Shown here: in pieces, positions 2,074 through 31,762 of the stretch
Position numbering within the stretch: the first letter of the stretch is position 1
How the letters are laid out: each line of letters begins with the position of its first letter
DNA from: a virus
DNA length: 64,000 bases
Reading direction: 5' to 3' (one strand)
IMG/VR virus record: IMGVR_UViG_3300010883_026628
Coordinates: 1 to 64,000 of that record
Made by a program: the position numbers and the translations under genes
Notes under the pieces: generated by a model
Seen by the model: only the letters and a program-made list of their open reading frames with translations
Told to the model about the DNA's origin: nothing
Database searches by the model: none

Positions 2074-2532
2074 ATGGACGAAGATAGCAGAACTGGGCGC
2101 CTGAGAGAGTACATTCAGCTTTATCTTAGGCGCAAGCAAAGGGTAAATGAATATGAACAACGCAGAATACTCTTTCTTTCTGAGGAAAGCTTTATTAAAT
2201 CTAGCGAGAGCAAGGCTAATAGCCGTAAAGCATACTCAAAAAGAAAAGTCGCTAAAAATAAGCTCTATTATGATAGAAATAAAAAAAGAACTAAAATCAC
2301 CACAGAAGAAATAGGACGAAGCCACCACACTATTCGACAAGAACCCCACCAATATGACGAAATATTCACCGATGTTGCTATCGATTCATACGCAGTAGCA
2401 AATGGTCACTATGCTTCGGTTAGAACTCGGGATGGTGATCAAAAATTTTCAAAATTGTTTGTTACACCTGAAGAAGCTGATTTTTGGATTAGGAACACAG
2501 CTATGAAGTTGAGTAAAGTCATTACTCAATAA
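2074..2532 (+). CDS. basic protein, unknown
   Basis: The product is 152 residues. The first 75 are very basic and helical (RLREYIQLYLRRKQR, then KAYSKRKVAKNK), which suggests nucleic-acid binding. The last 60 look like a small alpha/beta domain (YASVRTRDGDQKF, then TPEEADFWIRN). A GGAGGG lies at 2053-2058, about 15 bases from the ATG, which is longer than ideal; no other start codon sits in frame nearby. The 3' end overlaps the convergent protease gene by 11 bases. I recognise no family. Confidence 0.55.
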   Translation: MDEDSRTGRLREYIQLYLRRKQRVNEYEQRRILFLSEESFIKSSESKANSRKAYSKRKVAKNKLYYDRNKKRTKITTEEIGRSHHTIRQEPHQYDEIFTDVAIDSYAVANGHYASVRTRDGDQKFSKLFVTPEEADFWIRNTAMKLSKVITQ

Positions 2533-3289
2533 TCGATTTTATGTCTTGCTTTTGCAACTCCACAAATCTTTCCAGAATATCATGTAAATCTTTGTACCTT
2601 ACCGATAATGAAATATGGGAAAACAAGACGTGTGTTCTTTGCACTATCCCAACAATCGTATTAGAAGAATTGTAGATGGGCCCTCCGGATGCCCCCGCCG
2701 CGGCGGGAATGGTGTAAAAAGAAAATACCTTGCTATTACCTATATACTGTCCTTTTAGCACTGGGACCATACCAGTGTCGAAGATTGACACAGGGGCGGA
2801 AATGCTATAGTACTCCGCGTTAAGCTGGGGTTTCACCCTAGATACTTTCGGAATACGCTTAACCGTTGGGTGTAACGCAGACACAATACATACATCATAT
2901 TTTAGATTGACATATAAGATCTTTCCTTTTATCTTATGTCCAGTGTAGCTTTCTAGTAATAATTCTGTTTTGACCTTTGATCCATTTGGTATGCTACTCC
3001 AAATTTCATAAGCCGGTCCTAAGCATACATGACCTGCAGTCAAAAATGCCTTGTGGCCTTTATAACTAAAAAATGTTCCAGATCCTAGAGCTGCTCGTTT
3101 CCCCCTTGAAGACAAAATGCACGCTTCAACCTTCGTTTTTGGATCTTGTTTACATTCATAAAGAATTAATTCTACTACGGTCCTAACTTGGGCGAAAGCT
3201 TTATTGTGAGGGTTTGTTTTGTTTACCGCTATAGCGCAGGATGATAATGATAGCAAGGAAGAAAAAACTAAAAATAATACTAAAAACAA
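2522..3289 (-). CDS. exported trypsin-like serine protease (lipoprotein)
   Basis: The product is 255 residues in the chymotrypsin/HtrA fold. The triad is visible: His87 in TAGHVC, Asp132 in KYDVCIV and Ser201 in GASGGP. No PDZ domain is present. The N-terminus is a signal peptide ending LSSC (Cys18), so it is probably a lipoprotein. The listed start is TTG at 3289. A better-placed start may be ATC at 3298-3296: it would add Ile-Lys-Lys, giving a normal positive n-region, and sits 4 bases after GGAGAGGG on the coding strand. It is one of the few minus-strand genes. It may process envelope or virion proteins. Confidence 0.8.
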   Translation of the reverse strand: MFLVLFLVFSSLLSLSSCAIAVNKTNPHNKAFAQVRTVVELILYECKQDPKTKVEACILSSRGKRAALGSGTFFSYKGHKAFLTAGHVCLGPAYEIWSSIPNGSKVKTELLLESYTGHKIKGKILYVNLKYDVCIVSALHPTVKRIPKVSRVKPQLNAEYYSISAPVSIFDTGMVPVLKGQYIGNSKVFSFYTIPAAAGASGGPIYNSSNTIVGIVQRTHVLFSHISLSVRYKDLHDILERFVELQKQDIKSIIE

Positions 3290-3552: not shown

Positions 3553-5160
3553 ATGCTATCACTTTTCCCATATAAAAAAGCCAGAGAACAACAAACAATC
3601 GCCATGGCGTTTATAGATGATACATTCGTCTCAAGTAATAAAAAATTCTGTATTATTGAAGCTGGAACCGGGGTTGGAAAGAGTGCCCTAGGTGTATACG
3701 CATCAAACTTATTACAAAATAACAACACAGAAAAGCAACAAGGTAGCTACTTTTTAACTACTCAAAAAATTCTACAAGATCAATATGTAGAAGACTTTGC
3801 AGCTAATCAACAAATGTTGTCCCTAAAGTCATCATCCAATTATAGTTGTAAATATTATAAGGGATCGACGTGCGGAGAAAGTCTAAGGTTGTTAAGATCA
3901 GAACCTAAAGATTCTCCCTTTTGGAGGTGTTGTGCGATTAATTGTAATTACAAAAAAGAAAAAGAAAGATTTATCCATGGTAAGAAAGGTGTCACAAATT
4001 TTTCATACTTTTTAGCAGAGACAGTATACGCTGGGAAACTTAAACCTAGAAATCTATTAGTGATAGATGAGGCCCACAATACAGCTAACGAATTATCGAA
4101 GTTTATCGAAGTTACGATATCTGAGCGTTTTTGTAAGTCTCAAAATATAAATTTTCCAAGTGAACTTACTCAAAGTCAAGCGTTCAAGTGGGTAAAGGAA
4201 ACGTACCATCCCCATGTTAAGTCTAGACTCAAATATATGGAAGGTATTTTAGAAAAATATACAGGTCTTAAAGACAAGATTAAAGAAATGCAAAAAACTT
4301 CGAACAATTTTGATTTACTAGACAAGCATGTTTGTAAGGTCAAGAGGTTTATAGATCGCTATGAAAAAGACAATTGGATCTTTAATCTTATACCGGGTGA
4401 AGGTAGATCTTCTAGAAAGATAGAATTTAAACCTATTGATGTTTCCAAATACGCGCATGAGCATCTTTTTGATAGGGCAGATAAGATTTTACTTATGAGT
4501 GCGACGATATTAGACAAAAGTGCGTTTTGTGAATTACTTGGTATAAAACCAGAAGAGTGCAATTTTCTAAGCCTGGCTAGTCCATTTCCTACGAGTAATA
4601 GACCAACCATAACAGCGGGTATCGGTAAGATGTCTGCGCAGCATATCGACAATACCTTACCTAACTTAGCCAAAGCAGTGGAGTCAATTATTGGTGAGCA
4701 TAAAAATGAAAAAGGGATTATTCACTGCCACTCTTATAAAATAGCAAATTATCTTAAAAGAAGTATAAGAAAGGGCAAATCTAGATTAATATATCACACG
4801 TCCGAAAATAGAGACGAAGCTTTAGAGAGGCATAGAAAATCTGATAAGCCTACAATATTACTATCTCCCTCTATGACTGAGGGTATTGATCTAAGGGATG
4901 ATCTTAGCCGTTTCCAGGTTATTTGTAAGATACCCTATCCGTATTTAGGCGATAAATTAATTAGAAAAAAAATGAATAAATGGAAGTGGTGGTATCCTCT
5001 ACAGACAGCTAAGACGATCATTCAGGCAATCGGTAGATCAGTCCGTTCAAAAGACGATTATGCAACTACCTATATCCTGGATGAAGACTGGGACCGATTT
5101 TATCGTATGAATAGACGTCTTTTTCCAGAGGACTTTCATGAGACCGTTAACAAAAATTGA
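3553..5160 (+). CDS. XPD/DinG-family superfamily 2 DNA helicase
   Basis: The product is 535 residues. Walker A is at 36-44 (EAGTGVGKS) and the DEAH box at 172-175 (VIDEAH). Between them are Cys99, Cys107, Cys126/127 and Cys131, placed where XPD, DinG and Rad3 enzymes bind a 4Fe-4S cluster. The C-terminal half has the helicase motifs LMSATIL, LLSPSMTEGIDL and QAIGRSVRS (motif VI). These enzymes unwind DNA 5' to 3' in repair or replication. GGAG lies about 8 bases before the ATG. It is shorter than E. coli DinG (about 716 residues), as phage versions often are. Confidence 0.85.
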   Translation: MLSLFPYKKAREQQTIAMAFIDDTFVSSNKKFCIIEAGTGVGKSALGVYASNLLQNNNTEKQQGSYFLTTQKILQDQYVEDFAANQQMLSLKSSSNYSCKYYKGSTCGESLRLLRSEPKDSPFWRCCAINCNYKKEKERFIHGKKGVTNFSYFLAETVYAGKLKPRNLLVIDEAHNTANELSKFIEVTISERFCKSQNINFPSELTQSQAFKWVKETYHPHVKSRLKYMEGILEKYTGLKDKIKEMQKTSNNFDLLDKHVCKVKRFIDRYEKDNWIFNLIPGEGRSSRKIEFKPIDVSKYAHEHLFDRADKILLMSATILDKSAFCELLGIKPEECNFLSLASPFPTSNRPTITAGIGKMSAQHIDNTLPNLAKAVESIIGEHKNEKGIIHCHSYKIANYLKRSIRKGKSRLIYHTSENRDEALERHRKSDKPTILLSPSMTEGIDLRDDLSRFQVICKIPYPYLGDKLIRKKMNKWKWWYPLQTAKTIIQAIGRSVRSKDDYATTYILDEDWDRFYRMNRRLFPEDFHETVNKN

Positions 5161-5403: not shown

Positions 5404-6576
5404 ATGGCTACATTTAAAGAAAATAAAAACGTCTCTGACCGATCTGGATCAGATCGACAGAGACATAAAGAAAAGATTGAAAAAGCGATAAAGGACGGGA
5501 TCCATGATATTGTCGCGGATGAATCTATCATTGGACAAGATGGTAAGAAAAAGATCAAGATTCCTGTTAAAGGAATTAAAGAATACCGTTTTGTGTATGG
5601 GGATAATGAGGGTAAGAAGAACATAGGATCAGCCCAAGGAAAAGACATATTCAGAGGGCAAAAAGTGGGTCAAAAAGATAAGGGGTCCCCTGGGACCCCT
5701 AATCAGGCTGGAAAAGATAAGGGCGAAGAATTTTACGAAGTAGAAATTACTCTAGATGAACTAGCTGCTTATCTGTTTGATGATCTTAAGCTTCCCAATA
5801 TGGAGAAGAAGAAATTCAAAAATATTGATAGTAATTCTTATAAGCGACATGGGTATCGAAACGAAGGTATTCGTCCTAGGCTGGATAAGAAAGAAACAAT
5901 TAAGAAAAAAATAAAAAGAAAAAAGAAAGCTATAAAAAATAAAACCCATGATCCGGAAGAGGATGAGCGGTTTGGTTTTCATCACGATGATCTAAGGTAC
6001 CGCTTCATAAAAGAAAAAAAGAAACCGACATCAAATGCGGCTATCTTTTTTATTATGGACATATCTGGATCTATGACGAAGGAAAAAAAATTTTTAGCAA
6101 GAAGTTTCTTCTTTCTGCTTTACCACTTTATTAGATCTAAATACGAAAATACAGAGCATTGCTTTATAGCTCATGATACTAAAGCTGCCGAAGTTACGGA
6201 AGATGATTTTTTCGGTAAGGGCTCAAATGGGGGTACACTTGCATCAACTGGATTAGATAAGTGTTTAGATATTATAGAAACGCGTTATCATCCTAGCACA
6301 TGGAATGTATATGTGTTTCAATGCTCCGATGGTGATAATTGGCCCGAAGACAACGAAGCGGCCCTTATAAGCGCTAAAAAGCTTTCAGACTTAAGTCAGT
6401 TTTTTGGGTATTGTGAAATCGAACCGCGGGAAATTAGATCTAAATGGATTCAGATGTCTAGCCTTTCAGAGCTATTTATCCCTTTAATAAAAGATAGTTT
6501 CAAGATTGCAGAGATCAGAAATAAAGATGATATATGGTTAGCCTTTCAAAGATTTTTCGGAGGATTTCGTGAGTAG
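5404..6576 (+). CDS. yeaH: DUF444 / YeaH-family VWA protein
   Basis: The product is 390 residues and matches the DUF444/YeaH family. The N-terminal helical region and basic linker (KKKIKRKKKAIKNK near 167-180) lead to a VWA-like domain with a MIDAS-type DISGSM at 219-224, then long stretches typical of the family (ARSFFFLLYHFI, ENTEHCFIAHDTKAAEV, WNVYVFQCSDGDNW). In bacteria YeaH is encoded with PrkA/YeaG and SpoVR/YcgB and is linked to stress and starvation responses; its biochemistry is unsettled. E. coli YeaH is about 427 residues. It overlaps the SpoVR-like gene by 8 bases, and the ribosome-binding site for that gene lies in its 3' end. Confidence 0.9.
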   Translation: MATFKENKNVSDRSGSDRQRHKEKIEKAIKDGIHDIVADESIIGQDGKKKIKIPVKGIKEYRFVYGDNEGKKNIGSAQGKDIFRGQKVGQKDKGSPGTPNQAGKDKGEEFYEVEITLDELAAYLFDDLKLPNMEKKKFKNIDSNSYKRHGYRNEGIRPRLDKKETIKKKIKRKKKAIKNKTHDPEEDERFGFHHDDLRYRFIKEKKKPTSNAAIFFIMDISGSMTKEKKFLARSFFFLLYHFIRSKYENTEHCFIAHDTKAAEVTEDDFFGKGSNGGTLASTGLDKCLDIIETRYHPSTWNVYVFQCSDGDNWPEDNEAALISAKKLSDLSQFFGYCEIEPREIRSKWIQMSSLSELFIPLIKDSFKIAEIRNKDDIWLAFQRFFGGFRE

Positions 6577-7873
6577 CTGGAATATAAAAGATCTAGAAAA
6601 ATGGGATAATAAGATTATCGAACTGGCTAAAACTCATAACTTAGATTGGTTTCCAATCGCTTATGAAATTTGTGACTATTATACCATGATAGGCAATATG
6701 GCATACCATGGTATGCCCCTCCATTATAGACACTGGAGTTATGGTAAATCTTTTGAACGAACGCATCAGATGTACAATCTTGGAGCCGAAGGTTTACCCT
6801 ATGAATTAATCATTAATAGTGATCCATCTATAGCATATCTAATGAGAGAGAACCCCTTCTATTTACAATTGTTAATAATGTGTCATTGCGTTGGACATTC
6901 AGATTTTTTTAAAAATAATTTAACCTTCGCAGACACTGGTCCTGAAAATATTATTCAGCGATTTAAGAACGCAAAAAAAAGAATTGATAGTTATATAGAG
7001 GATCCCAGTATAGGTATAGAGAAAGTAGAGCGTATATTAGACTCTGCGCATGCATTATCGATGCACGGGCCGCCCAACTGTAAAGAATATATACCACATA
7101 GAAAAAGAAGGAAAGATCTAATACAGAAGATAAAATCAGGTGATGAATCTGCTAAAGGTAAAAATCCTGATGTCTTTCCCATAGGGGACGAAATCGATTT
7201 GCTAGGCTTTATTTCAGAGATGGCTTTGAACTTAGAAGATTGGGAAAGAGACATTATCGATATTGTTAGACTCGAATCAGCATATTTTATGCCTCAAATT
7301 CGAACGAAGATTATGAATGAAGGGTGGGCTTGCTTTTGGCATTATAGATTAATGCATAAACTAGAGTTGCCCCAAAAGTTTCATATTCCATTCTTAAAAA
7401 GTCATAACCAAGTTGTTAGACCTCATATGGGAAGGATTAATCCTTATCACCTGGGCTTTTACCTCTTTAATAAAATAGAAGAAAGACACGGTTTGGAAGA
7501 GTGCTTTATAGCTAGAGAGGTTTGTCATGACGAATCATTCTTAAGACAGTACTTGACAAAAGAAGATTGTTATGAATTAAACTTATTCTCATATTCTTTG
7601 TATAAAAAAGACTATGTTATTAATGAAATTTCTGACGACGAGGGATGGAAAAATATTAAGTCTTCTTTGATAAAACAAATTGGATCAAACTCGATACCTA
7701 AGATAATCATTAAAGAGCTTAAACAAAATAACGTGTTAAGAATACATCATGAACATGATGGAAGAGATCTAGAGCTAAGTTACGCAGAGAAAGTAGTCGA
7801 TTATATTACCACATTATGGGGCGGTGTTGTTCGGCTAGATACCATAATAGAACATGAGCCATTCGAGATTTAG
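6569..7873 (+). CDS. spoVR: SpoVR / YcgB-family protein
   Basis: The product is 434 residues from a GTG start preceded by CGGAGG at 6558-6563. It has the SpoVR hallmarks: WFPIAYEICDYY, GMPLHYRHWSYGKSFE, YELIINSDPSIAYLM, MCHCVGHSDFFKNN and NEGWACFWHYRLM. The repeated His and Glu residues (HCVGHSDFF, EGWACFWH) suggest metal binding. The family is needed for normal spore cortex in Bacillus and appears in a stress module with YeaH and PrkA in many proteobacteria. It is somewhat shorter than YcgB (about 510). It is sandwiched between its two usual partners. Confidence 0.9.
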   Translation: MSSWNIKDLEKWDNKIIELAKTHNLDWFPIAYEICDYYTMIGNMAYHGMPLHYRHWSYGKSFERTHQMYNLGAEGLPYELIINSDPSIAYLMRENPFYLQLLIMCHCVGHSDFFKNNLTFADTGPENIIQRFKNAKKRIDSYIEDPSIGIEKVERILDSAHALSMHGPPNCKEYIPHRKRRKDLIQKIKSGDESAKGKNPDVFPIGDEIDLLGFISEMALNLEDWERDIIDIVRLESAYFMPQIRTKIMNEGWACFWHYRLMHKLELPQKFHIPFLKSHNQVVRPHMGRINPYHLGFYLFNKIEERHGLEECFIAREVCHDESFLRQYLTKEDCYELNLFSYSLYKKDYVINEISDDEGWKNIKSSLIKQIGSNSIPKIIIKELKQNNVLRIHHEHDGRDLELSYAEKVVDYITTLWGGVVRLDTIIEHEPFEI

Positions 7874-7881
7874 GAGATACC

Positions 7882-9810
7882 GTGAGTAAGAAAAATTTTT
7901 TGAAACTGATAGACGAGCAGAGAAATAAAGCGAAAAAAGAAAAGTTTAAGGGAAGCTTTATAGATTTCTTAAAGATGGTAAAAGATACCCCTAAAATAGC
8001 TGACTCTGCTCATAAAAAGCTATATGACACATTATTCCAGCATGGCGTGTCTATAATCGAAGATAGTGATCCTAGAAAGAATAAAATATTTGATGGTGAT
8101 AATATAAAGATCTATGATTATTTTAAAGATGAATTTTTCGGAGCTGAGCAAGTCGTTTCAAAGATTATGAGATTCTTAAAATCTGCGGCGGCTAGAGGTG
8201 AAGAGTCTAGACAGGTGCTTCTATTAATGGGGCCAGTGGGTGCAGGCAAGTCAGCCATAACAGAGCATGTCAAAAAATCTCTAGAAGGTGTTAGCTATTT
8301 CCATATAAAGGATGATCCACAAAAGGGGAATCCGTTGCAACTCATACCTCGAGGTATTAGAGGCGCTTTCGAAGAAGAACTAAATGTTAAAATAGAGGGA
8401 GATATTTCACCTCCAATTAGATTTAAGCTGCTAGAAGAGATGGATGGGAAATATGAAGATTTTGAAATTCTAGAAACAACATTTTCACAAAGAGGGCGAC
8501 GTGGTGTTGCTTCGGTACCTCCTATGGACGCCAACTCACAAGATGTGTCTGTCTTGATTGGATCAGAAGATATTTCAAAACTGGATTTATATTCAGAAGA
8601 TGATCCTCGAGTTCTTTCGCTTAATGGCGCATTCAATATTGGAAATCGAGGGATAGTAGAGTTTATAGAACTTTTTAAAAATGAGATTGAATTTCTTCAT
8701 ACCATTATAACAGCTACTCAAGAGAAAAGAGTACCGGCACCGGGCAGACATGATATGATTCATTTTGATGGAGTTATTATAGCGCACTGTAACGAAGCTG
8801 AATGGAATCGTTTTCAGAGTGAGCATACTAATGAAGCCATCCTTGACAGAGTTGTGAAGGTTAATGTTCCCTATGTATTAGAGCTAGATCAGGAAATTAG
8901 AATATACGAAAAGCTTTTGTCTAGATCGAGCTTTGATAGTCATATTGCACCGCATACGCTCCGGATAGCGTCGATGTTTAGTGTACTATCTAGACTCAAG
9001 CCGTCGGGTAAATGTGATCTTTTAACAAAAATGAAAATATATAATGGGGAAGATGTTATAGAGAAAGGTAGGGTCAAGAAAATTGACATAAAAGACTTAA
9101 GGGAAGAATCACTACATGAGGGAATGTCTGGTATCTCCACTAGGTTTATTATGAAATCAATTGACTGTGCCCTCTCGGATAGCGACAAGGGCTTTATAAC
9201 ACCAATCTCAATCATGGATACTATAGCCAAGAACTGTAAGGAACAAATTGTTGATGAAGCCTTTAAACAGGAGTGCTTAACAGTATTACAAGATGTGGTC
9301 AGAAAAGAATATCTTAGAATTCTAGAAAGTGAGATTGCGAAGGCTTTTGTGGCAGCGTACGAAGAGCAAGCTCAGTCTTTATTTGAGACCTATCTAGATA
9401 ATGCAGAAGCATTTGCTATGAGATCAAAGATAAAAGACAGAATCACTAACGAAGAGATGGTACCAGACGAAAAGTTTATGGCTACCATAGAAGAAGCTAT
9501 TGGAATAGTCGGTTCATCTAAAGAAGGGTTTAGGGCAGATGTTACCGCATATATGTTTGCAAAAGTGCGGCGGGGCGGGACTGTAGATTATAGAAGTTAT
9601 GAACCATTAAAAGAAGCTATTGAAAGTTATCTCATTAATAGTGTTAAAGACATGGCAAGAATTGTTACAAAATCCAAAACTAGAGATGATAAGCAGAAAA
9701 AAAAGTACAATAATATGATAAAAACAATGATTGATGATTATGGTTATACTGAGAGCTCTGCGGAAGAGATTCTAGTTTATGCAAGTAATAATCTTTGGAG
9801 GGATTCATGA
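7882..9810 (+). CDS. prkA: PrkA / YeaG-family serine protein kinase (AAA+)
   Basis: The product is 642 residues, essentially full length (E. coli YeaG is about 644). The N-terminal AAA+ domain has Walker A GPVGAGKS at 117-124 and the PrkA signatures YFHIKDDPQKGNPL, IRFKLLEEMDGKYEDF, GSEDISKLDLYSEDDPRVLSLNGAFN and NRGIVEFIELFKNEIEFLHT. The C-terminal region corresponds to the PrkA kinase-like domain. PrkA proteins are described as Ser/Thr kinases, and some also as AAA+ proteases, acting in sporulation or nutrient stress. The start is GTG at 7882 with AGGAGAT upstream, 8 bases after the SpoVR stop. All key motifs look intact. Confidence 0.92.
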   Translation: MSKKNFLKLIDEQRNKAKKEKFKGSFIDFLKMVKDTPKIADSAHKKLYDTLFQHGVSIIEDSDPRKNKIFDGDNIKIYDYFKDEFFGAEQVVSKIMRFLKSAAARGEESRQVLLLMGPVGAGKSAITEHVKKSLEGVSYFHIKDDPQKGNPLQLIPRGIRGAFEEELNVKIEGDISPPIRFKLLEEMDGKYEDFEILETTFSQRGRRGVASVPPMDANSQDVSVLIGSEDISKLDLYSEDDPRVLSLNGAFNIGNRGIVEFIELFKNEIEFLHTIITATQEKRVPAPGRHDMIHFDGVIIAHCNEAEWNRFQSEHTNEAILDRVVKVNVPYVLELDQEIRIYEKLLSRSSFDSHIAPHTLRIASMFSVLSRLKPSGKCDLLTKMKIYNGEDVIEKGRVKKIDIKDLREESLHEGMSGISTRFIMKSIDCALSDSDKGFITPISIMDTIAKNCKEQIVDEAFKQECLTVLQDVVRKEYLRILESEIAKAFVAAYEEQAQSLFETYLDNAEAFAMRSKIKDRITNEEMVPDEKFMATIEEAIGIVGSSKEGFRADVTAYMFAKVRRGGTVDYRSYEPLKEAIESYLINSVKDMARIVTKSKTRDDKQKKKYNNMIKTMIDDYGYTESSAEEILVYASNNLWRDS

Positions 9811-10052
9811 ATAATATAGGCGCTAGCGAAATCTTAGTTGTAGCAGCGGCAGTTATGTCATACGCAAATTTGCACTTAGCGATTGTAACGCTAGCTTTAG
9901 GTGTCCTAGGTGCTGTCGTAAGATATTCTATCGCTCATAATGAAAAGCAAGAAAAAGCTAAAGAGATTGAAGGTGTAGCCGAGAATTTCACAAATCTTCT
10001 TTCCGGTTTAACAAGTGGAATTGGACCAAAAGACAAAAGTAATCTGCATTAA
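9807..10052 (+). CDS. small membrane protein in the PrkA operon
   Basis: The product is 81 residues from ATG 9807, which overlaps the PrkA stop (ATGA) and has GGAGGG at 9797-9802. A TTG four codons earlier is possible but would swallow the ribosome-binding site. Residues about 7-43 form one or two hydrophobic helices (EILVVAAAVMSYANLHLAIVTLALGVLGAVV), followed by a charged, probably cytoplasmic, tail. The function is unknown; it could tether a partner in this operon to the membrane. Confidence 0.65.
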   Translation: MNNIGASEILVVAAAVMSYANLHLAIVTLALGVLGAVVRYSIAHNEKQEKAKEIEGVAENFTNLLSGLTSGIGPKDKSNLH

Positions 10053-10055: not shown

Positions 10056-11261
10056 ATGTTATCAACACCAACCCCCATAAACGCAGGTGAGATAGATCTT
10101 TTTTTTGAAGAGCTTAATGATTTTTGTCAACAGCAAAAATCAAAAGAAATGGTGTATTTTGGTATTGAAGAAATTTGCAACATCGCGTTCGCGGAAACTT
10201 ACAGATCTATAGTAGACTTTGAATTCACCAATAAACATATTAGAGATTTATTAGTTTGTCAAATGGAGGCCCTTCAATCATATAGCCCTAATGCGGCAGT
10301 GTATCTTCCTTTTTTTATAAATGTGTTATCTAAAAAAACGATTAACTTAAATCACGACAAATTTATGAATGCTATTAATCCAGCAACGAATGAAGCGATT
10401 AATGATATAATATCATCACAATTCGAGCATTCTAGTATACTTCATCCGGAAGATTTTAAGTCAATTTTTGAAGCCAACGGCTTTATGTCAAGTTTCTCTA
10501 TCAAGAAATCTAACAGCTTTCATAATGCGTGTGTTTTTGATTCAGGACTAACTATAAATTGCAACTTATATTCTGGTTTTTTTAAAAAAAATAAATCAAC
10601 TATAGAATTTCAATATCCGCAAATTGTTATTTATGACGGATATATAAAAGATGTCTCTGAAATTAATCTGATCTTACAGACTTCTCTTGAAAAAGATGTT
10701 CCTTTTTTGATTTTTGCCAAAGGCGCTAGTCATGATGTTTTGAATACATGCGCTGTTAATCTAGATCTAAAGAAGTGCAAAGTTTGTATCATAGATCCGG
10801 GACCTATTTTCTGGAAAGATCAAGCACAGCAGTTATACAATATATTAGAGATCTCTCCTTATGGAGATGTAACAGGTAGGCTATTAAATAACTTCAAGCT
10901 AGAAAGTAATTCTAATACAACAGTTTTAATAAAACAAAATGAAGTCTTTATTAAGGGAGATGCGTTTGATCTTAATAGCAATGCAAAGACAACATTTTTT
11001 TTAAATGATCAATCTTGGGCAAAGAGAGGTTTAATTTTTGATCAATTAAACTTTTTCGCTAGTACTATGCAGCAAACAGCTACATGTGGTGTTATAAATA
11101 ATCAATCATTTTATGACATAACGGGAATAACTATTAATGAAGTTACTGGTTTAAGTAATACGTTTCATCCAGCATTTTCTGTTATTAGAGCGTTAAAAGA
11201 AGCAGAAACTATTATTAATAAAATAGTTAATATTGGTTATTTCATAAGGCTCAAAAGATAA
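10056..11261 (+). CDS. divergent GroEL-like protein lacking the ATPase residues
   Basis: The product is 401 residues. About 105-390 can be aligned by eye with GroEL. [14 protein letters not shown] matches [34 protein letters not shown] with [21 protein letters not shown] matches the apical ADKKISNIREMLPVLE with [31 protein letters not shown] matches VAAVKAPGFG, and [16 protein letters not shown] onward matches the C-terminal equatorial segment. The ATP-binding DGTTT loop and the catalytic Asp398 region of GroEL have no counterpart, and the protein is about 150 residues shorter than GroEL. It may be a substrate-binding or adaptor protein that works with host GroEL. It starts 4 bases after the membrane-protein stop. 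Confidence 0.65.
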   Translation: [401 protein letters not shown]

Positions 11262-11262: not shown

Positions 11263-11724
11263 TTGAATATTAAATGGAAAAATTCTGTTGGCAATCAATT
11301 CGAAATATCAGAAATTATCGATTTAATAAAAGAATATCCATCATCTCAAATACACGTAGGGACAGACTCACACTTTAAGTCAGGAAAACTAATTTTTGCC
11401 ACAGTTATCGCTGTTTATGCCCCGGGAGAGTGTTCAAGATATTTTTTTAAGAGATATTTAGAAAATGGTAAATATAGAATAGGACTTTCATCTAGGCTCC
11501 TAAAAGAGGTGCAAGACTCTATTGAAACAGCAGCTACAGTCCAAGAGCTAATAAGTCCAAATAGAGAAATATTCGTTCATGCCGATATCAGCAGCGACGC
11601 TAAAAATAAGAGTAATATTGTATATGAACAAGCCAGACGGTGGATAATGGCTATGGGATTCGGTTGTAGAATGAAGCCAATCTCGTGGGCTTCATCATCT
11701 ATCGCTGATTTACATGCAAAATAA
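11263..11724 (+). CDS. YkuK-like (DUF458) RNase H-fold protein
   Basis: The product is 153 residues. It has the features of the YkuK/DUF458 family: QIHVGTDSHFKSGKLIFATVIAVY at the front with the first conserved Asp, IFVHADISSDAKNKSN with the second, and a final GFGCRMKPISWASSSIADLHAK with the last. The fold is RNase H-like and the family is a predicted nuclease without proven substrate. The start appears to be TTG at 11263, one base after the chaperonin-like gene's stop; no ATG lies near. It ends the operon that begins with YeaH. Confidence 0.75.
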   Translation: MNIKWKNSVGNQFEISEIIDLIKEYPSSQIHVGTDSHFKSGKLIFATVIAVYAPGECSRYFFKRYLENGKYRIGLSSRLLKEVQDSIETAATVQELISPNREIFVHADISSDAKNKSNIVYEQARRWIMAMGFGCRMKPISWASSSIADLHAK

Positions 11725-12669: not shown

Positions 12670-12921
12670 TTAAGGATTTAGGATTTGTCTAAAATTAAGC
12701 AATTTATTTTTAATAGATTTTTCGATTTGGCAAATCCTCATTCTGGTCACGCCAAAAATATCACCAATCTCCTGCAGCGTTTTGGGACCATCGGCTGCAG
12801 CGATTAAGGTACAATTTTGATCACAAGAATAATTAATCCAGTATCTACAACTAGTCTTCTCACAAGATACGCTATATTTTTTATGAGCTTCAAAGCATGA
12901 TAACTCTTTATCTTTTTCCAT
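12670..12921 (-). CDS. Cys-rich sigma-region-4-like regulator
   Basis: The product is 83 residues. The C-terminal half is a sigma70 region 4-type helix-turn-helix (TLQEIGDIFGVTRMRICQIEKSIKNKL). The N-terminal half has Cys9, Cys20, Cys25, Cys33 and Cys37, a possible zinc or iron-sulfur site. There is no region 2, so it is not a full sigma factor and more likely a regulator or anti-sigma-like modulator. GAAGGAT precedes the ATG on the minus strand. It is divergent from the PhoH gene, so the two may share a control region (12922-13001). Confidence 0.75.
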   Translation of the reverse strand: MEKDKELSCFEAHKKYSVSCEKTSCRYWINYSCDQNCTLIAAADGPKTLQEIGDIFGVTRMRICQIEKSIKNKLLNFRQILNP

Positions 12922-13001: not shown

Positions 13002-14291
13002 ATGAAAAGAAAAACATTTGTACTAGATACCAATGTTCTACTATACGATAAGACATCTATTCACTCATTTCCTGGAAACGATGTGGTAATTCCGTTGTTG
13101 GTTTTAGATGAATTAGACCGCTTTAAGGAAAAACCTGGAGTTATTGGAGAGTCGGCGCGATATGTTAATAGGCTGCTCGATGGGTTTAGGGATATTGGGC
13201 GATTAGATGAAGGTATAAAGCTACCGAGGGAATTGTCTAGAGATCAAACAATAAAAGTTATAATTGGGGAGCATGCTGCTCCTTTTGGATTAGCTGGTAA
13301 TGCCGGTGATAATCTAATTATTGCGGCGACTTTGTCTGAAGGTCGCGAAGTCCCAAATAAGACGATTATATTAGTAACAAAGGATATTAACCTAAGAGTT
13401 AAATGCGATGCCTTAGGGATACGTTCTGAGGACTATTATAAGGACCACATAGCTAGCGAGGATGTGGATTATTCCGGATATCGTAAGATGACGCTGAGTC
13501 AGAACGAAACCGATCAATTTTACCAAGACGGAATATTAAAAATAGCAACTAATGATATGTTTCCAAATGAGTACGTTTTGGTAAATGAAGGGGAACACAC
13601 TGGACTTATTGCACGATATGAAGATGGGTGCTTAAACAAATTGCTCGGCGCGCCGGGCGGTATTTCAAAAATTTCTCCAAAAAATAAAGAGCAAAGCTTT
13701 GCTATCGACGCGTTGATGCAGACGAATATACCCCTAGTTACCTTAACAGGAATAGCTGGATCGGGCAAAACCTTTTTAACGTTAATGGCGGCGATGGACG
13801 GAGTAATGACTAAAAAATATAATAGAATAATAATTAGTCGTTCAATTCAAACAGTTGGAAATGATATTGGGTTTTTGCCCGGAAACTTAAACGAGAAGAT
13901 GGATCCTTGGCTAGCACCAATAAAAGATAATTTCCAAACGATGTTTAACGATATTACATATTTCGAAGCCATGAAAGATAAAGGCCAAATAGAGGTTGCT
14001 CCGTTAGCCTTTATAAGAGGTAGATCTTTTAACGATTCTTTCGTAATCGTTGATGAAGCCCAAAATGCGACTGTCCATGAATTAAAAACGCTAATTACTC
14101 GAGTGGGACAAAATTCAAAAATTGTTTTACTGGGTGATACTGACCAAATTGATACCCCCTACATTGATAAAGTCTCTAATGGATTGTCTATTATAGTAGA
14201 TCGCTTTAAGACGACAAACCTCTCAGCACATGTACATATCCCACATGGACAAAGATCAAATTTAGCAACTTTGGCATCCAATATTTTGTAG
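13002..14291 (+). CDS. phoH: PIN-PhoH fusion ATPase (PhoH2 type)
   Basis: The product is 429 residues. The N-terminal PIN ribonuclease domain shows its acidic residues at Asp9, Asp36/Glu37, Asp103 and Asp128 (VLDTNVL, LDELD, GDNLI, TKDINL). The PhoH ATPase domain has Walker A GIAGSGKT at 250-257 and Walker B FVIVDEAQNAT. This PIN-plus-PhoH arrangement is the PhoH2/YlaK type, linked to RNA unwinding and cleavage. PhoH genes are common in marine phages, though many are the PhoH domain alone. AAAGGAG lies upstream of the ATG. The next gene has its own ribosome-binding site, and no terminator is visible between. Confidence 0.9.
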   Translation: MKRKTFVLDTNVLLYDKTSIHSFPGNDVVIPLLVLDELDRFKEKPGVIGESARYVNRLLDGFRDIGRLDEGIKLPRELSRDQTIKVIIGEHAAPFGLAGNAGDNLIIAATLSEGREVPNKTIILVTKDINLRVKCDALGIRSEDYYKDHIASEDVDYSGYRKMTLSQNETDQFYQDGILKIATNDMFPNEYVLVNEGEHTGLIARYEDGCLNKLLGAPGGISKISPKNKEQSFAIDALMQTNIPLVTLTGIAGSGKTFLTLMAAMDGVMTKKYNRIIISRSIQTVGNDIGFLPGNLNEKMDPWLAPIKDNFQTMFNDITYFEAMKDKGQIEVAPLAFIRGRSFNDSFVIVDEAQNATVHELKTLITRVGQNSKIVLLGDTDQIDTPYIDKVSNGLSIIVDRFKTTNLSAHVHIPHGQRSNLATLASNIL

Positions 14292-20903: not shown

Positions 20904-22796
20904 ATGTTCGATACCCCGTTTAAAGAAGAAATTCCAGATATTATCTTTGTCGCAGACTTTTATGCTAAAGATATCCCAGGTGGCGCTGAACTAACTACTC
21001 AGGCCTTGATAGATAGTGCTCCAGAGAATATTAATATATCAGCTATATACTCAAAAGATCTTACAATGGAGTTAATGCAAAAGTACAAAGACTGTTATTG
21101 GATATTTACAAATTTTTCCGGAATTAATCTAAACCTAATACCTACCGCTGCATCTAATCTAGATTACTCTATTATAGAGTACGATTATAAGTTTTGCAAA
21201 TATCGCTCTATAGAAAAACATCAGCATATTGAAAATGCAGAATGTGATTGTCATGAGCAAATTCATGGAAAGATGATCTCTGCATTCTTCCTAGGCGCCA
21301 AAAATGTTTGGTGGATGTCTGAGGCTCAGGAACAACGATATATCGACCGATTTCCCTTTTTAGGAGAAATAGAGTCAGTAGTATTAAGCTCTGTTTTCGA
21401 TGATAAATTTTTTATAAAAATTGCTGACCTGAATAAAGAAGAAAAAGACAGAACGGGTTGGCTGATTCTAGAGTCGACCAGCTGGATAAAGGGCACTGAT
21501 GATGCTGTAGAACATTGCGAAAAAAATAATCTAGATTTCGAAAAACTTTCCGGCTTATCGCACACTCAGGTTCTAGAAAAACTATCCTCTGCAGAAGGGC
21601 TGGTATACCTTCCCAGGGGTGGCGACACATGTCCTCGATTAGTTATCGAAGCTAAGATGCTAGGGTGCGATTTAGTTTTAAATGAATATGTTCAACACAA
21701 GAATGAGATTTGGTTTAATACCACTGACAGCTTCGACACTAGCGCTTATCTTTTTGCCGCTCGTGAAAGATTTTGGGATGGTATAATTTCTAAGATGAAT
21801 TGGTCACCAACAATTTCAGGTTATACGACTGTTTATAACTGCGACGAAAATGAATACCCATGGGAAAAATGCATTGAATCGATGTTAGGTTTTTGCGATG
21901 AAGTTATTATCATCGACGGTGGATCCACAGATGGTACATGGGAAAAATTAATAAAGATGTCTGAATTAGATTCCCGTCTAGTAGTTGAGCAAAATATTAT
22001 AGATTGGGACCATCCACGCTTCGCATATCGTAGTGATGGAATGCAAAAAGCATATGCACGCTTAAAGTGCTCTTCTGACTTTTGTTGGCAAATGGATAGC
22101 GATGAGTTTGTTCTTCCAAAAGACTATAAGAAAGTCAAAGATTTAGTCAAGAGATTCCCAAAGTTAACTGAATTAGTAGCCTTACCAGTCGTTGAATTCT
22201 GGGGAGGTTACGATAAAATACGCGTAGACGTTAACCCATGGAAGTGGAGAGTATCAAAAAATATCCCTCAAATAACCCATGGCATCCCCCTAGAGCTTCG
22301 AAGGGAAGATGAGGATGGAAATCTATATACTGCACCGGGCAGTGACACATGTGACTATATTCATCCTGAAAGCTTTAAGAGAACAAAGTTTTTGGCTTTC
22401 TATTCTGAAGAAATTGAGCACCATCGAAGAAATGCATTAGTAGGTAATCATGATAGTTTAGAAAAATTCCAAAGCTGGATAGCCATGGCTACCGAAAGCA
22501 TTCCAACCATTTATCATATGTCATGGTTCGACTTAGAAAGAAAGATTAATCTATATAAGAATTTTTGGTCTAAGTTTTGGCAATCTCAATATAATATGCC
22601 CCAGGAAGATACTCCGGAAAATAATATGTTTTTTAATAAGAAATGGTCTAGTGTAACCAATGAAGAAATAAAGGAGTTAGCAATCCGTCTAGGTACTGAG
22701 ATGGGTGGTTGGATATTTCATAATAAGATTGACTGGAACGCTAAAACCCCTCATATCACCATCACTCACGGTTGCAAAGAGTTTCTGGAGAATTAA
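20904..22796 (+). CDS. two-domain glycosyltransferase (GT-B-like + GT2)
   Basis: The product is 630 residues. Residues 1 to about 280 resemble a GT-B fold (IIFVADFYAKDIPGGAELTTQ, then GLVYLPRGGDTCPRLVIEAKMLGC). About 300-600 is a GT2, GT-A domain: GYTTVYNCDENEYPWEKCIES, DEVIIIDGGSTDGTWEKL, and MDSDEF as the DxD motif. The two halves probably act in sequence or one has become a binding domain. It heads the cluster and follows the repeat-rich intergenic region. Confidence 0.75.
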   Translation: MFDTPFKEEIPDIIFVADFYAKDIPGGAELTTQALIDSAPENINISAIYSKDLTMELMQKYKDCYWIFTNFSGINLNLIPTAASNLDYSIIEYDYKFCKYRSIEKHQHIENAECDCHEQIHGKMISAFFLGAKNVWWMSEAQEQRYIDRFPFLGEIESVVLSSVFDDKFFIKIADLNKEEKDRTGWLILESTSWIKGTDDAVEHCEKNNLDFEKLSGLSHTQVLEKLSSAEGLVYLPRGGDTCPRLVIEAKMLGCDLVLNEYVQHKNEIWFNTTDSFDTSAYLFAARERFWDGIISKMNWSPTISGYTTVYNCDENEYPWEKCIESMLGFCDEVIIIDGGSTDGTWEKLIKMSELDSRLVVEQNIIDWDHPRFAYRSDGMQKAYARLKCSSDFCWQMDSDEFVLPKDYKKVKDLVKRFPKLTELVALPVVEFWGGYDKIRVDVNPWKWRVSKNIPQITHGIPLELRREDEDGNLYTAPGSDTCDYIHPESFKRTKFLAFYSEEIEHHRRNALVGNHDSLEKFQSWIAMATESIPTIYHMSWFDLERKINLYKNFWSKFWQSQYNMPQEDTPENNMFFNKKWSSVTNEEIKELAIRLGTEMGGWIFHNKIDWNAKTPHITITHGCKEFLEN

Positions 22797-22798
22797 AG

Positions 22799-23503
22799 AT
22801 GCCAAAAGTATCTATAATTGTACCGGTTAAAAACTGCGGTAAAACAATCAACAAATCAATAAAGTCAGTGCTAGATCAAACATATACTGACTTCGAAATA
22901 ATCGTTGTTGACAATAATTGTACTGATGATACAATCAAAAAAATTCGATCGCTAAAAGATGATAGAATAAAAGTAGTTGAATGTCATATTCCTGGTATAG
23001 TCCCAGCATTAAATACTGGACTAAAAAACGCGACAGCTCCGTTAATTGCTCGTCAAGATGGCGATGATGTCTGGTATGTGGACAAACTGGAAAAGCAAAT
23101 AAAGATCTTTGATAATAGGGATAATATTGATATATGTGGAACTCAAATAAGACTAGTAACAGCAGCCGGTATTGTCACTGATGACGAATTTCGCTATCCA
23201 CTAAACGATACAGCGATAAAGTCCTGGCTTTTGACTGGTAAGAATGCTATAGCGCACCCTTCAGTAATGTTTAAAAAAGAAGTATTGTTAAGGATCGGTG
23301 GTTATGATGATTCATACCCTATTGCAGAAGATCATCATATGTGGTTAAGGTGTATCAAATGGTTTAACTTTTGCAATTTAGGAGAGGTTCTGGTGGACTA
23401 TAATTCTAATCATAATCCAAAATATGACCCCCAAATTCCATTATTGGCTTCTGAGGCTCAATTTAAGTTATTAAAACACACAGGGTTTGTAAAAGTATGC
23501 TAA
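22799..23503 (+). CDS. GT2-family glycosyltransferase
   Basis: The product is 234 residues starting MPKVSIIVPVKNCGKTI, a textbook GT2 N-terminus. It has the nucleotide-binding DFEIIVVDNNCTDDT and the DGDD metal site (IARQDGDDVWY). The ATG at 22799 has CTGGAG before it; an earlier in-frame start at 22772 lies inside the previous gene and is unlikely. It overlaps the next gene by 7 bases. The sugar it moves cannot be read from sequence. Confidence 0.85.
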   Translation: MPKVSIIVPVKNCGKTINKSIKSVLDQTYTDFEIIVVDNNCTDDTIKKIRSLKDDRIKVVECHIPGIVPALNTGLKNATAPLIARQDGDDVWYVDKLEKQIKIFDNRDNIDICGTQIRLVTAAGIVTDDEFRYPLNDTAIKSWLLTGKNAIAHPSVMFKKEVLLRIGGYDDSYPIAEDHHMWLRCIKWFNFCNLGEVLVDYNSNHNPKYDPQIPLLASEAQFKLLKHTGFVKVC

Positions 23504-24279
23504 CTAGTCTACAAATAGGACAAAATGGTCGTTTAGGAAACCAAATGTTTCAATATGCGGCTTTAGCGTCCGTTGCCTTCACCAGAGGGTTTAACCATTA
23601 TTTGCAAAAAAATGATGATGTTGACTTATGGAAAATATTCAAGATGGAAGGTGTAGACATCTTGACAGAAGAGATAGCTAATACATTACAATACCGATAT
23701 CCCGAACCTGACTTTCATTTCAATGCTAGCGCATTTTTAGTAGAAGACAATACTGATATGTTTGGGTATTTTCAGTCACCAATATATTTTGGTAATTGTT
23801 TTGAGATGATAAAAAAGACATTTACTTTTAAAGATGAGATAAGTACCGTAGCAACTACTACTTTTAAGAAACACACAGATACCCGACCAATATGCTCTAT
23901 ACATATACGGAGGGGTGATTATCTAACTAAGAGTAACTACCACCCTCCGTGTACAATTGAGTACTATAACGAAGCAAAAAAACGTGTTCTCGCAGCCACT
24001 AACAACAACATTAAATTTCTTCTATTTGGTGATGATCATCAATGGATCAAAGATAACTTATTAGACGATCGTTCCACTTTAATTGAAGGAAATACTCCAG
24101 AGGTAGACATGTGTATGATGTCAAAATGTTCTGCACATATTATATCTAACTCTTCTTTTTCATGGTGGGGAGCTGTGTTAGGAAATTTTCAGGGTGTAGT
24201 GGCTCCCAGTATGTGGTTTGGTCCTGATGGACCTAAGAGATGGGACACAATTTATATCCATGGATGGAGTGTGGTGTGA
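23497..24279 (+). CDS. GT11 alpha-1,2-fucosyltransferase
   Basis: The product is 260 residues. The start (GRLGNQMFQYAAL), the IHIRRGDY motif (GDP-fucose binding), and the C-terminal ISNSSFSWWGAVLG, FGPDGPKRWD block are characteristic of GT11 alpha-1,2-fucosyltransferases. It would add L-fucose to a terminal galactose-type residue. The donor can be made by gmd and fcl homologues in the same cluster. It shares 4 bases (GTGA) with the next gene, which is a GT6 enzyme. Confidence 0.88.
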   Translation: MLTSLQIGQNGRLGNQMFQYAALASVAFTRGFNHYLQKNDDVDLWKIFKMEGVDILTEEIANTLQYRYPEPDFHFNASAFLVEDNTDMFGYFQSPIYFGNCFEMIKKTFTFKDEISTVATTTFKKHTDTRPICSIHIRRGDYLTKSNYHPPCTIEYYNEAKKRVLAATNNNIKFLLFGDDHQWIKDNLLDDRSTLIEGNTPEVDMCMMSKCSAHIISNSSFSWWGAVLGNFQGVVAPSMWFGPDGPKRWDTIYIHGWSVV

Positions 24280-25019
24280 CTAGTATAGGTATAATTTTCA
24301 TTGGTACCGGCCCCTATATAGAATTTCTTGACGGATTTCAAAAAAGGGTAAATCGTTTTTTTTGTCCTAAAATAGAGAAGAAAATCTACGCGTTTACAGA
24401 CTGTATGGACCATTCTAGTCTAGATTATAAAAACATAGAGTCTATTCAAATTGATCATGTGGGGTGGCCTTTTATAACTTTACATCGTTTTAAATTTATG
24501 AACTCGATATCTGATAAGCTAAGATCTCATTCTCATATTTTCTTTATCGACGCCGACTTGTGGCCTGTAGATGATATTCATTTTTCTGATTTCTTTGATA
24601 CGGGAGAAAGTCATGACTTTGTAGCTGTCCAGCATCCAGGATTTGTCGATAAGCCCGGGACATTTGAGAATAATAAAGAATCCACCGCCTTTGCATACTC
24701 AGGCCTTTATGATTTATCTGTGTATCGTCAGGGTTGCTTTTGGGGTGGTACGGTTGAGTCTATACTCGCTATGATATCTACTTGCGAGAAGAACGTAGAC
24801 ACAGATACAAACAACAATATTATAGCAAAATGGCACGATGAATCTCATATGAATAAATATTTTTTACAAAATCCCACCAACGTAAAGACCTTAAGTCCTG
24901 GATACGCAACACCAGAAGCGCCAGGCTACGATTTCGTTTGGAGGACCCATAAAGTTAAAATGGTTCACTTGAATAAAGATCCTAAAGAGTTTCCTAGATT
25001 CGAAGGTGCAGGTAACTAA
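24276..25019 (+). CDS. GT6-family (ABO-type) alpha-1,3-glycosyltransferase
   Basis: The product is 247 residues from GTG 24276. It has the GT6 signatures: KKIYAFTDCMD, WPFITLHRFKFM, FFIDADLWPV (DxD-type DAD), AVQHPGF, FWGG, and WHDESHMNKYFL with LSPGY. GT6 includes the human ABO transferases, which add Gal or GalNAc to fucosylated galactose. As I recall, bacterial members often carry NxN in place of DxD, and a GT6 gene is known in cyanophage P-SSM2. It overlaps the GT11 gene by 4 bases. An upstream ATG at 24240 is out of keeping with the family start. Confidence 0.85.
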   Translation: MTSIGIIFIGTGPYIEFLDGFQKRVNRFFCPKIEKKIYAFTDCMDHSSLDYKNIESIQIDHVGWPFITLHRFKFMNSISDKLRSHSHIFFIDADLWPVDDIHFSDFFDTGESHDFVAVQHPGFVDKPGTFENNKESTAFAYSGLYDLSVYRQGCFWGGTVESILAMISTCEKNVDTDTNNNIIAKWHDESHMNKYFLQNPTNVKTLSPGYATPEAPGYDFVWRTHKVKMVHLNKDPKEFPRFEGAGN

Positions 25020-25021
25020 TA

Positions 25022-25975
25022 ATGAAAATTTGTATTATTGGCCCCGGAATGATATCTATACCTCCTATTGGCTGGGGTGCTGTTGAAATTTTAATAGATG
25101 ATTATAGAAATAGTCTAGAAGCTCTAGGTCACGAAGTATACATCATTAATACAAAAGATATGGCATTAGCTGCTTTCATTACCAACAATCTTTCTCCTGA
25201 CTTTGTCCACGTCCAATATGACGATTATATCGACTTAGCCAAAGATCTGGTGTGCAAAAACGTAGCAATTACTAGCCACTACGCTTATCTAGAGAACAAA
25301 TCTAGATGGAATCACGATTATAACAATTTTTTTATAAAGACATGTCTCTCAGATATAAACATATTTTGTTTGTCTGAAGAGATCGCTAGTGTATACCGCG
25401 ACGCATGTGTTTCTGATGATAGGTTATTCGTGACCAGGAACGGCGTTCGTAATGACTTATTTGACTTTAACGAAGAATGCTTAAAACCTAATGATAGCAT
25501 TTACTTAGCAAAAATTGATGAAAGAAAAGGCCAATATAAATACCGTCATATAGAAAGTTTATGGTTCCACGGTGGAATTTCTGATAATCGATTTCCTGAC
25601 TGGCACCCTCGCTATTTAGGCGAAGTGACAAAGCAAGAACTGTATAAGCGTCTAACACAGTGGGCAAATTTGGTTTTGCTAAGTGATGGTGAAGCCCATC
25701 CACTAGTTTGTATGGAGGCGCTGTCTGCCGGACTAGGATTGGTTTTATCTGAGTGCGCCACTGCAAATCTAGATGTTAAGCTACCATTCATAGATATTAT
25801 TCCTAATGACAGACTAGACGATATTGAATATGTTTCCGGTGTTATAGGCAGAAATAGAGAGAAGTCAATTACTATGAGGAGTGAAATAAAAGAGTACAGT
25901 ACATTCTTTTCTTGGTCGGAAACAATCAAAAGCAATTATATACCAATTATTGAAAAAATAATAGGTAAAAAATAA
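25022..25975 (+). CDS. GT4-like glycosyltransferase (copy 1 of a tandem pair)
   Basis: The product is 317 residues with a GT-B fold. The N-terminal donor-side loop is CIIGPGMISIPPIGWGAVEI, and the C-terminal SDGEAHPLVCMEALSAG carries the acidic pair typical of GT4. It starts 2 bases after the GT6 stop. It is clearly related to the next gene (same start, same C-terminal block). The sugar is unknown. Confidence 0.75.
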   Translation: MKICIIGPGMISIPPIGWGAVEILIDDYRNSLEALGHEVYIINTKDMALAAFITNNLSPDFVHVQYDDYIDLAKDLVCKNVAITSHYAYLENKSRWNHDYNNFFIKTCLSDINIFCLSEEIASVYRDACVSDDRLFVTRNGVRNDLFDFNEECLKPNDSIYLAKIDERKGQYKYRHIESLWFHGGISDNRFPDWHPRYLGEVTKQELYKRLTQWANLVLLSDGEAHPLVCMEALSAGLGLVLSECATANLDVKLPFIDIIPNDRLDDIEYVSGVIGRNREKSITMRSEIKEYSTFFSWSETIKSNYIPIIEKIIGKK

Positions 25976-25979
25976 CGAT

Positions 25980-26921
25980 ATGAAAATTTGTTTAATAGGT
26001 CCTGGAATTCTACCAATTCCTCCCACTGGATGGGGCGGTTGCGAAATATTAATGTGGAATCTAAAGTGCGAACTAGAAAATCAAGGCCATGATGTCCTAA
26101 TAGTTAATACTAAAGATCTACGAAAAGCTATTAACGATACGAATATATGGTCTCCTGACTTCGTTCATCTTCATTATGATGAATATGCTGATATTATGCC
26201 CTACATAACTGCTCCTCGAGCAATGACTAGTCATTATCCCTATCTAGACTACCCTGCAAAACGATCTGGCTACGAATGGATATTTCAGAAGTTTTCACAA
26301 AACCATTCTCATATTTTTAGTCTTTCCGATAGAAACAGTTATCACTTTAGAATTAATGGGGTCAGTTCAGATCTCGTCTGGGACTGGATGTATGGGGTTC
26401 CATCATCAGATTTCCGCTTTGTTGAAAGTCCCGTACATCATAATAAGACGATATGCTTAGGGAAAATAGAGCCAAGAAAGTTCCAATCTTTCCTACAAAA
26501 TGTTAAAAATATAGATTTTGCCGGTCCTATAGCAGATAATAGATTTAAGAAATTATCAAGTTATTTAGGAATCTGGACTAGGGATCAAGTCTATAATAAC
26601 TTAACTAATTATGCTAATTTAGTTTTGTTTAGCGATGGCGAAGCAGCTCCGCAGGTTGTACCTGAAGCCCTCATCGCCGGCTGTGGGTTAGTACTTTCAG
26701 AAGAAGCCGCGGCCAACCTAGACTTAAGTCTACCATTTATAGACGTCGTAAAAACAGATTGTTCTTCTGATGAGCTTGATATTATAATAAAAAATAATAG
26801 AATTAAATCGTTAGGTATGCGGAGCCAAATTAGGAAATATGGCCTAAATAAATTTGGTATGACTAGCTGTACAAAGTTATATATCAAAAAAATAGAAAAG
26901 ATTATTGCTGATGCTAGATAG
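25980..26921 (+). CDS. GT4-like glycosyltransferase (copy 2 of a tandem pair)
   Basis: The product is 313 residues. It begins KICLIGPGILPIPPTGWGGCEI and has SDGEAAPQVVPEALIAG at the C-terminal end, closely parallel to the preceding gene. The pair probably arose by duplication and diverged in acceptor specificity. The ATG follows the upstream stop by 4 bases. Confidence 0.72.
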   Translation: MKICLIGPGILPIPPTGWGGCEILMWNLKCELENQGHDVLIVNTKDLRKAINDTNIWSPDFVHLHYDEYADIMPYITAPRAMTSHYPYLDYPAKRSGYEWIFQKFSQNHSHIFSLSDRNSYHFRINGVSSDLVWDWMYGVPSSDFRFVESPVHHNKTICLGKIEPRKFQSFLQNVKNIDFAGPIADNRFKKLSSYLGIWTRDQVYNNLTNYANLVLFSDGEAAPQVVPEALIAGCGLVLSEEAAANLDLSLPFIDVVKTDCSSDELDIIIKNNRIKSLGMRSQIRKYGLNKFGMTSCTKLYIKKIEKIIADAR

Positions 26922-26929
26922 GATAGAAT

Positions 26930-29398: not shown

Positions 29399-29400
29399 TT

Positions 29401-31761: not shown

Positions 31762-31762
31762 T

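Follow-up and report, generated by a model that had tools for sequence, protein, structure and literature searches.

A conserved YeaH-SpoVR-PrkA operon in a lineage of T4-like jumbo phages

Introduction

What does a phage gain from carrying a complete copy of the YeaH-SpoVR-PrkA module? These three genes are widespread in bacteria, where they have links with starvation, persistence, and sporulation, but their biochemical function is not agreed. We asked this question of a 64,000-nucleotide stretch of DNA (here, the window), positions 1 to 64,000 of the 66,063-base IMG/VR virus record IMGVR_UViG_3300010883_026628, in which an initial annotation made from the sequence alone had recognized the three genes as a phage operon. 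It proposed that the phage uses them to keep a starved host productive or to phosphorylate host targets. We find that the module is intact, under purifying selection, and kept in one order throughout a lineage of very large, uncultured phages that lives in the ocean and in freshwater. With modest confidence, we lean toward reading it as a working phage version of the bacterial PrkA-YeaH-SpoVR module, in which an AAA+/vWA pair acts on SpoVR and aids the infection of starved cells.

Results

The module consists of three genes on one strand, as follows.

5404 to 6576, plus strand: YeaH/YhbH (DUF444), 390 amino acids, ATG start; Pfam PF04285, E = 7e-108; vWA fold with an intact metal ion-dependent adhesion site (MIDAS)
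6569 to 7873, plus strand: SpoVR (YcgB family), 434 amino acids, GTG start; Pfam PF04293, E = 8e-118, and PF24755
7882 to 9810, plus strand: PrkA (YeaG), 642 amino acids, GTG start; Pfam PF08298, E = 4e-129, and PF06798, E = 2e-74

All domain matches of the module proteins exceeded the Pfam gathering score. YeaH scored 362 bits against a PF04285 cut-off of 27, SpoVR scored 394 bits against a PF04293 cut-off of 27, with its SpoVR_C match just above threshold (30.2 versus 27.6), and PrkA scored 431 bits for AAA_PrkA and 251 bits for the PrkA C-terminal domain, with a cut-off of 25. Because the NCBIfam equivalog cut-offs of the Escherichia coli and Bacillus subtilis type proteins were not reached (YeaH, for example, scored 395 bits against TIGR02877, sporulation protein YhbH, with a cut-off of 468), we take the module proteins to be divergent orthologs of those types.

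The reading frames are intact and closely packed, with an 8-nucleotide overlap between YeaH and SpoVR and an 8-nucleotide gap between SpoVR and PrkA. Both GTG starts are preceded by good ribosome-binding sites, GGAGG for SpoVR and AGGAG for PrkA. The three-gene coupled operon of the initial annotation therefore stands, but its extent was underestimated: since the PrkA stop codon overlaps, in the sequence ATGA, the start of a gene for an 81-residue hydrophobic protein, the coupled unit comprises at least four genes, and the last of these had been missed. A consensus scan of the region for promoters and terminators returned sites no more numerous than in shuffled sequence.

The signature motifs, which the initial annotation had called intact, are all present in the window. 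PrkA retains its Walker A motif (GPVGAGKS), E260/E263, N304, R323, and R421; YeaH retains the MIDAS residues D219-x-S221-x-S223, T278, and D309; and SpoVR retains H55, H106 and H110 (H106xxGH110), E251 (NE251GWA), and H258. The same holds well beyond this record, as all catalytic and metal residues tested are kept across about 100 distinct phage sequences. The Walker A and B, sensor, and Arg residues of PrkA are invariant (n = 104), as are the MIDAS residues of YeaH (n = 98) and the five SpoVR residues (n = 102), which likewise do not vary across a broad alignment of 78 sequences from phages and bacteria. In YeaH, the additional histidine H257 is replaced by Tyr in three phage sequences. The median ratio of nonsynonymous to synonymous substitutions (dN/dS), taken from the few close pairs with unsaturated dS, is about 0.04 to 0.05, which indicates purifying selection on the module. 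No gene of the neighborhood is better conserved among phage relatives than PrkA, whose median identity to the window is 71%, versus 54 to 57% for PhoH and DinG.

Gene order is equally constant. In all 138 related loci that span the three genes, they read YeaH, SpoVR, PrkA on one strand. We also selected loci through the neighboring PhoH gene, independently of the module, and required at least 7.5 kb of upstream sequence; PrkA was present in 62 of the 66 loci that qualified. This order differs from the common bacterial one, as first noted for the window, and the closest bacteria have PrkA-YeaH-SpoVR. We ruled out the kinase-last order as a phage-specific trait, since some Bacillota share it, although among bacteria it was seen in only a few acidophilic or thermophilic members of that phylum (L117, L118, L124, L128, and L148).

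The record is a fragment (66 kb) of a T4-like jumbo phage. A baseplate-wedge gene lies inside the window, and neither a gp23 capsid gene nor a terminase gene was found on the window's own 66-kb fragment. A close PrkA is encoded in 209 IMG/VR stretches, on contigs of up to 361 kb and in one copy per contig on the longest; we kept 80 of the 209, with PrkA identities of 67 to 91%. Most of the long contigs also encode a T4-type capsid and a terminase: of those tested for viral hallmarks, 14 (134 to 298 kb) had a T4 gp23-type capsid and a terminase above cut-off, and the same was true of the TMED69 contig described below; the 361-kb record had no gp23 match, and no terminase on it scored above cut-off. 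With gp23 and the large terminase on its long contigs, the lineage can be assigned to the T4-like jumbo myoviruses. Misassembly or contamination is ruled out by more than 200 independent contigs with a close PrkA, by the single gene order, and by the capsid and terminase genes alongside the module, and the suggestion that the genes sit in a genuine phage genome holds. Comparisons of DinG, PhoH, and the capsid turned up no close relative in culture. The best cultured DinG match was 35% identical (Tunturiibacter phage Tunturi_5), PhoH reached 38% at best, and the capsid was below 50%.

One member of the lineage (L092; NHDW01000006.1) is a jumbo phage contig of 305,838 bases that was binned into the metagenome-assembled genome (MAG) "Methylococcaceae bacterium TMED69." In that bin, the phage copy is the sole good PrkA and the sole SpoVR; one binned contig is no proof of a host.

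Whether phage copies form a clade of their own, a question raised by the initial annotation, was answered alike in three trees: in each of the PrkA, SpoVR, and YeaH trees, the marine and freshwater phage copies form one clade with support of 100. In all three, this clade adjoins a Clostridia-type group that includes some Myxococcota, Bdellovibrionota, and Pseudomonadota MAGs, and about 27 of the 291 sampled Clostridium-class genomes have a close relative, the best being 57% identical. The Clostridia-type prkA-yhbH-spoVR operon (L093 to L116 and L250 to L261) thus holds the nearest relatives of all three phage proteins, also in one operon, with identities of 51 to 57% for PrkA, 43 to 50% for YeaH, and 38 to 48% for SpoVR. 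The phage copies differ from that operon in their order, YeaH-SpoVR-PrkA, and branch apart from it as a clade with a long stem. Because the neighboring bacterial group has PrkA-YeaH-SpoVR, a rearrangement of the bacterial order is the simplest account of the phage one. Synteny and trees support a single capture of the module by the T4-like jumbo lineage, probably from a Clostridia-type operon, followed by vertical inheritance; the donor is placed at the level of this group. The E. coli genes yeaGH and ycgB belong to the same three families, but the phage proteins are only about 30% identical to the enterobacterial copies, and E. coli YeaH has a longer linker than the phage YeaH. In E. coli, ycgB is located away from yeaGH.

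The module is also carried by other phages, a possibility that the initial annotation had left open. We found it in the Thermus phages phiYS40, TMA, MN1, Lalka8, and phiLo and in four huge-phage records. In phiYS40, genes labeled DUF444, "SpoVR," and "serine kinase" lie in one cluster, and the order in Thermus phages, where it could be read, is YeaH-SpoVR-(X)-PrkA, again with the kinase last. The Thermus phage copies form a separate, fast-evolving clade on long branches near Sulfobacillus, and their PrkA is 29 to 34% identical. The huge phages LR745206, LR756502, and LR756504 and their IMG/VR relatives (L262 to L341) have the complete module and, unlike the marine clade, group with enterobacterial-type sequences. 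The order in these gamma-type IMG/VR loci is PrkA, YeaH, SpoVR in 66 of 80, the other 14 being shorter or partial, and LR756502 has SpoVR at a distant site, away from the other two genes. The fourth record, LR756511, groups with a Planctomycetota/Myxococcota-type group. In the Ralstonia jumbo phage RsoM2USA, SpoVR (ORF28) and PrkA (ORF30) are two genes apart with PrkA first, and the published table names these two alone (PMC8504454). A common origin of the marine and gamma-type huge phages was rejected (P = 0.0003), and one of the marine and Thermus phages was rejected marginally (P = 0.044, in a PrkA tree with long branches). Since the phage groups fall in separate tree positions and these joint origins were rejected, we conclude that phages took up the module about four times.

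Phage-borne copies were thus already known from phiYS40 and other Thermus phages, from huge phages, and from RsoM2USA, and what we add is a large new lineage. A search of the open-access literature found no description of the module as a unit in jumbo phages. Nor did we find described before its clade-wide conservation in T4-like jumbo phages, its repeated independent capture, the change in order, or the intein hot spot in SpoVR reported below.

We next consider the folds of the proteins. PrkA belongs to the AAA+ ATPases, and whether it acts as a kinase is disputed; it has a solved homolog (9xip, E = 4e-94), with 30 chains across three PDB entries. A PADLOC defense match of PrkA (DolB, E = 2e-5) covered the AAA+ P-loop region only, and we did not take it as a sign of a defense function. 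In an AlphaFold 2 model of YeaH, the C-terminal half has a vWA fold with a MIDAS and matches vWA domains in the PDB, including the MDN1/Rea1 MIDAS domain and a NorQD complex.

The AlphaFold 2 model of SpoVR is a confident one, with a predicted local distance difference test score (pLDDT) of 93.6. A functional hot spot in this protein is marked by inteins, which were found in SpoVR of three lineages: a marine phage (L041, 3255 to 5816), a huge phage (L088), and a Chloroflexota bacterium (L149). The three are inserted within two residues of one another, at NEG(WA)|S/C, beside the conserved Glu, and Pfam recognized the L041 intein and its LAGLIDADG endonuclease. Because inteins usually occupy active sites, three insertions at this place point to the E251 region as the working center of SpoVR. 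SpoVR is probably a metal-dependent enzyme, and its active site would lie around HxxGH...NEGWA(S)...H.

The genes that flank the module are listed below.

3553 to 5160, plus strand: DinG/Rad3-like helicase; phrog_2488, E = 7e-112; upstream neighbor, conserved in 64 loci
9807 to 10052, plus strand: small hydrophobic membrane protein, 81 amino acids; no family match
10056 to 11261, plus strand: chaperonin-derived protein, 401 amino acids; GroEL apical/intermediate region, fast-evolving
11263 to 11724, plus strand: RNase H-like protein; PF04308, E = 1e-22; conserved downstream neighbor
12670 to 12921, minus strand: 83-residue protein with a sigma-70 region 4 helix-turn-helix; PF04545, E = 6e-8; in 122 loci
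13002 to 14291, plus strand: PIN-PhoH protein; PF02562 and PF13638; the independent anchor for finding relatives

The 83-residue protein, encoded on the opposite strand just before PhoH, is a candidate phage transcription factor. In one relative (L208, 166 to 2237), the DinG-like helicase is split by an intein-like insert, and this insert is not in one open frame. Upstream of the module, at 2522 to 3289 on the minus strand, the window encodes a trypsin-like peptidase with a hydrophobic N terminus (possibly a secretion signal) that is conserved at this position in many relatives and has a weak PADLOC match to the protease part of RT-Protease_XI (E = 3e-8). Farther along, a long run of open reading frames (20904 to 39303; about 240 to 420 amino acids each), several matching glycosyltransferases (phrog_33732, phrog_2170, and GtrB-like), resembles a phage-encoded surface-sugar cluster.

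Discussion

An AAA+ ATPase together with a MIDAS-vWA protein is the layout of known remodeling pairs, and in the 138 phage loci two such proteins are encoded in the same operon with SpoVR between them. By analogy, PrkA and YeaH may work like an AAA+/vWA chaperone pair, and we do not claim them as members of that class. In the mechanism that we favor, PrkA would assemble into an AAA+ ring and hydrolyze ATP, and YeaH would be its adaptor, as in the NorQ-NorD, CbbQ-CbbO, RavA-ViaA, and Rea1 systems. The two would then activate or remodel SpoVR, or SpoVR's target. Through them, the phage would impose the starvation or stationary-phase adaptation that the bacterial module confers, so that slow-growing or starved cells would stay productively infected. 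A physical complex, the chemistry of SpoVR, the time of expression, and the benefit to the phage are points that we infer. In E. coli, yeaG and yeaH help adaptation to sustained nitrogen starvation (PMC4664914), and among the sporulation-type genes of viruses in an oxygen minimum zone, spoVR was the most abundant; the authors of that study proposed that viruses alter the physiological state of their hosts (PMC8940887). It is plausible that the module keeps a starved host productive during infection, as first suggested for this locus.

Several observations weigh against this reading. Three syntenic relatives (L208, L218, and L238) keep DinG, p153, sig83, and PhoH with the module missing between them, so the module may not be essential to such phages; these loci are fragments of 42 to 64 kb, and the module could be elsewhere in the genome. 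For SpoVR, a PDB search found no solved relative, the model's best PDB match by Foldseek was an M61 aminopeptidase and was weak (E = 0.098), and an hhalign comparison with the M61 profile was not significant. SpoVR has HxxGH, without the catalytic Glu of HExxH, and despite the similar motif we rejected an assignment to the M61-type metallopeptidases (M1/M61-like gluzincins) on these two tests. For PrkA, E. coli YeaG has been reported to phosphorylate isocitrate lyase (AceA) in vitro with malate (PMC8055822), and the lysine equivalent to K426 of YeaG (K425 in the phage) is kept in 104 of 104 marine phage copies.

These PrkA observations speak for a different account, in which the module is a protein kinase system, with PrkA as a Ser/Thr kinase and YeaH and SpoVR as its regulators, and host metabolic enzymes are phosphorylated. 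It is further favored by the finding that the "kinase-dead" substitution K426A abolishes complementation by YeaG (PMC4664914). However, Bacillus anthracis PrkA had no detectable kinase or protease activity in vitro after strict purification, and its kinase domain is without a P-loop (PMC13001217). Likewise, a Pfam search at E = 0.001 matched the phage PrkA to the AAA and PrkA families alone and to no protein-kinase family. K425 lies four residues beyond the conserved R421 of the GISTRF motif and is replaced by D in the Thermus phages. Because it stands beside this motif, its loss may harm the AAA+ part alone, and its conservation does not decide the kinase question. We consider a kinase system unlikely, and with the literature in conflict, the earlier proposal that the phage phosphorylates host targets is unsupported.

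A second alternative places the module in particle or envelope biology, with SpoVR and the coupled membrane protein altering the envelope or cell wall to serve lysis, entry, or the late stage of infection. According to the account of Beall and Moran (1994) given in PMC4605624, spore cortex formation in B. subtilis requires SpoVR. The translational coupling of the small membrane protein to PrkA in the window fits such a role, many relatives in the clade have a similar gene after PrkA, and the Lalka8 module is flanked by portal/minor head genes on one side and TerL on the other. Against it, other members of the clade retain the module and are without the membrane gene, and Pfam found no peptidoglycan-hydrolase domain in the module proteins. 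We therefore regard an envelope role as improbable.

Slightly less probable still is a protein-folding kit, in which the AAA+/vWA pair, the chaperonin-derived protein, and phage GroEL fold giant-phage proteins and SpoVR is a client or cofactor-bearing part. A profile built from 24 phage homologs of the chaperonin-derived protein matches GroEL residues 119 to 411 (E = 2e-35), which makes the adjoining gene a relative of the GroEL apical domain, and full-length GroEL genes are separately encoded elsewhere on the same long contigs. But the chaperonin-like gene stays at the same site in the module-less relatives L208 and L218, so that joint working is not required, and for this reason we leave it out of the module. 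Finally, that the genes are decaying passengers from transduced host DNA, without function for the phage, is very improbable: this does seem to be the case for Enterobacter phage LAU1, whose record starts with host-type yeaGH at its very end, but the low dN/dS, the invariant catalytic residues, and one order in 138 loci over deep divergence argue strongly against it here.

Returning to a PrkA/YeaH motor that acts on SpoVR, we can sketch a bolder and rather doubtful version, in which the motor, by way of the coupled membrane protein, activates SpoVR as a metal enzyme on or close to the membrane, beside the chaperonin-derived protein and GroEL, for replication in non-growing cells. If this were true, its separate acquisition in about four phage groups would mark the module as a general tool for infecting dormant bacteria.

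That unrelated large phages have captured these genes repeatedly, and almost always all three together, is strong natural evidence for a single device made up of the three proteins, with a benefit that would be immediate and cell-autonomous. The compact single-operon phage copies and their natural variants (module-less relatives, two gene orders, and inteins that mark the probable active site of SpoVR) make the biochemical question testable. Should the phages employ the module in starved hosts, it would matter for understanding phage reproduction in seas and lakes, where the bacteria are largely not growing.

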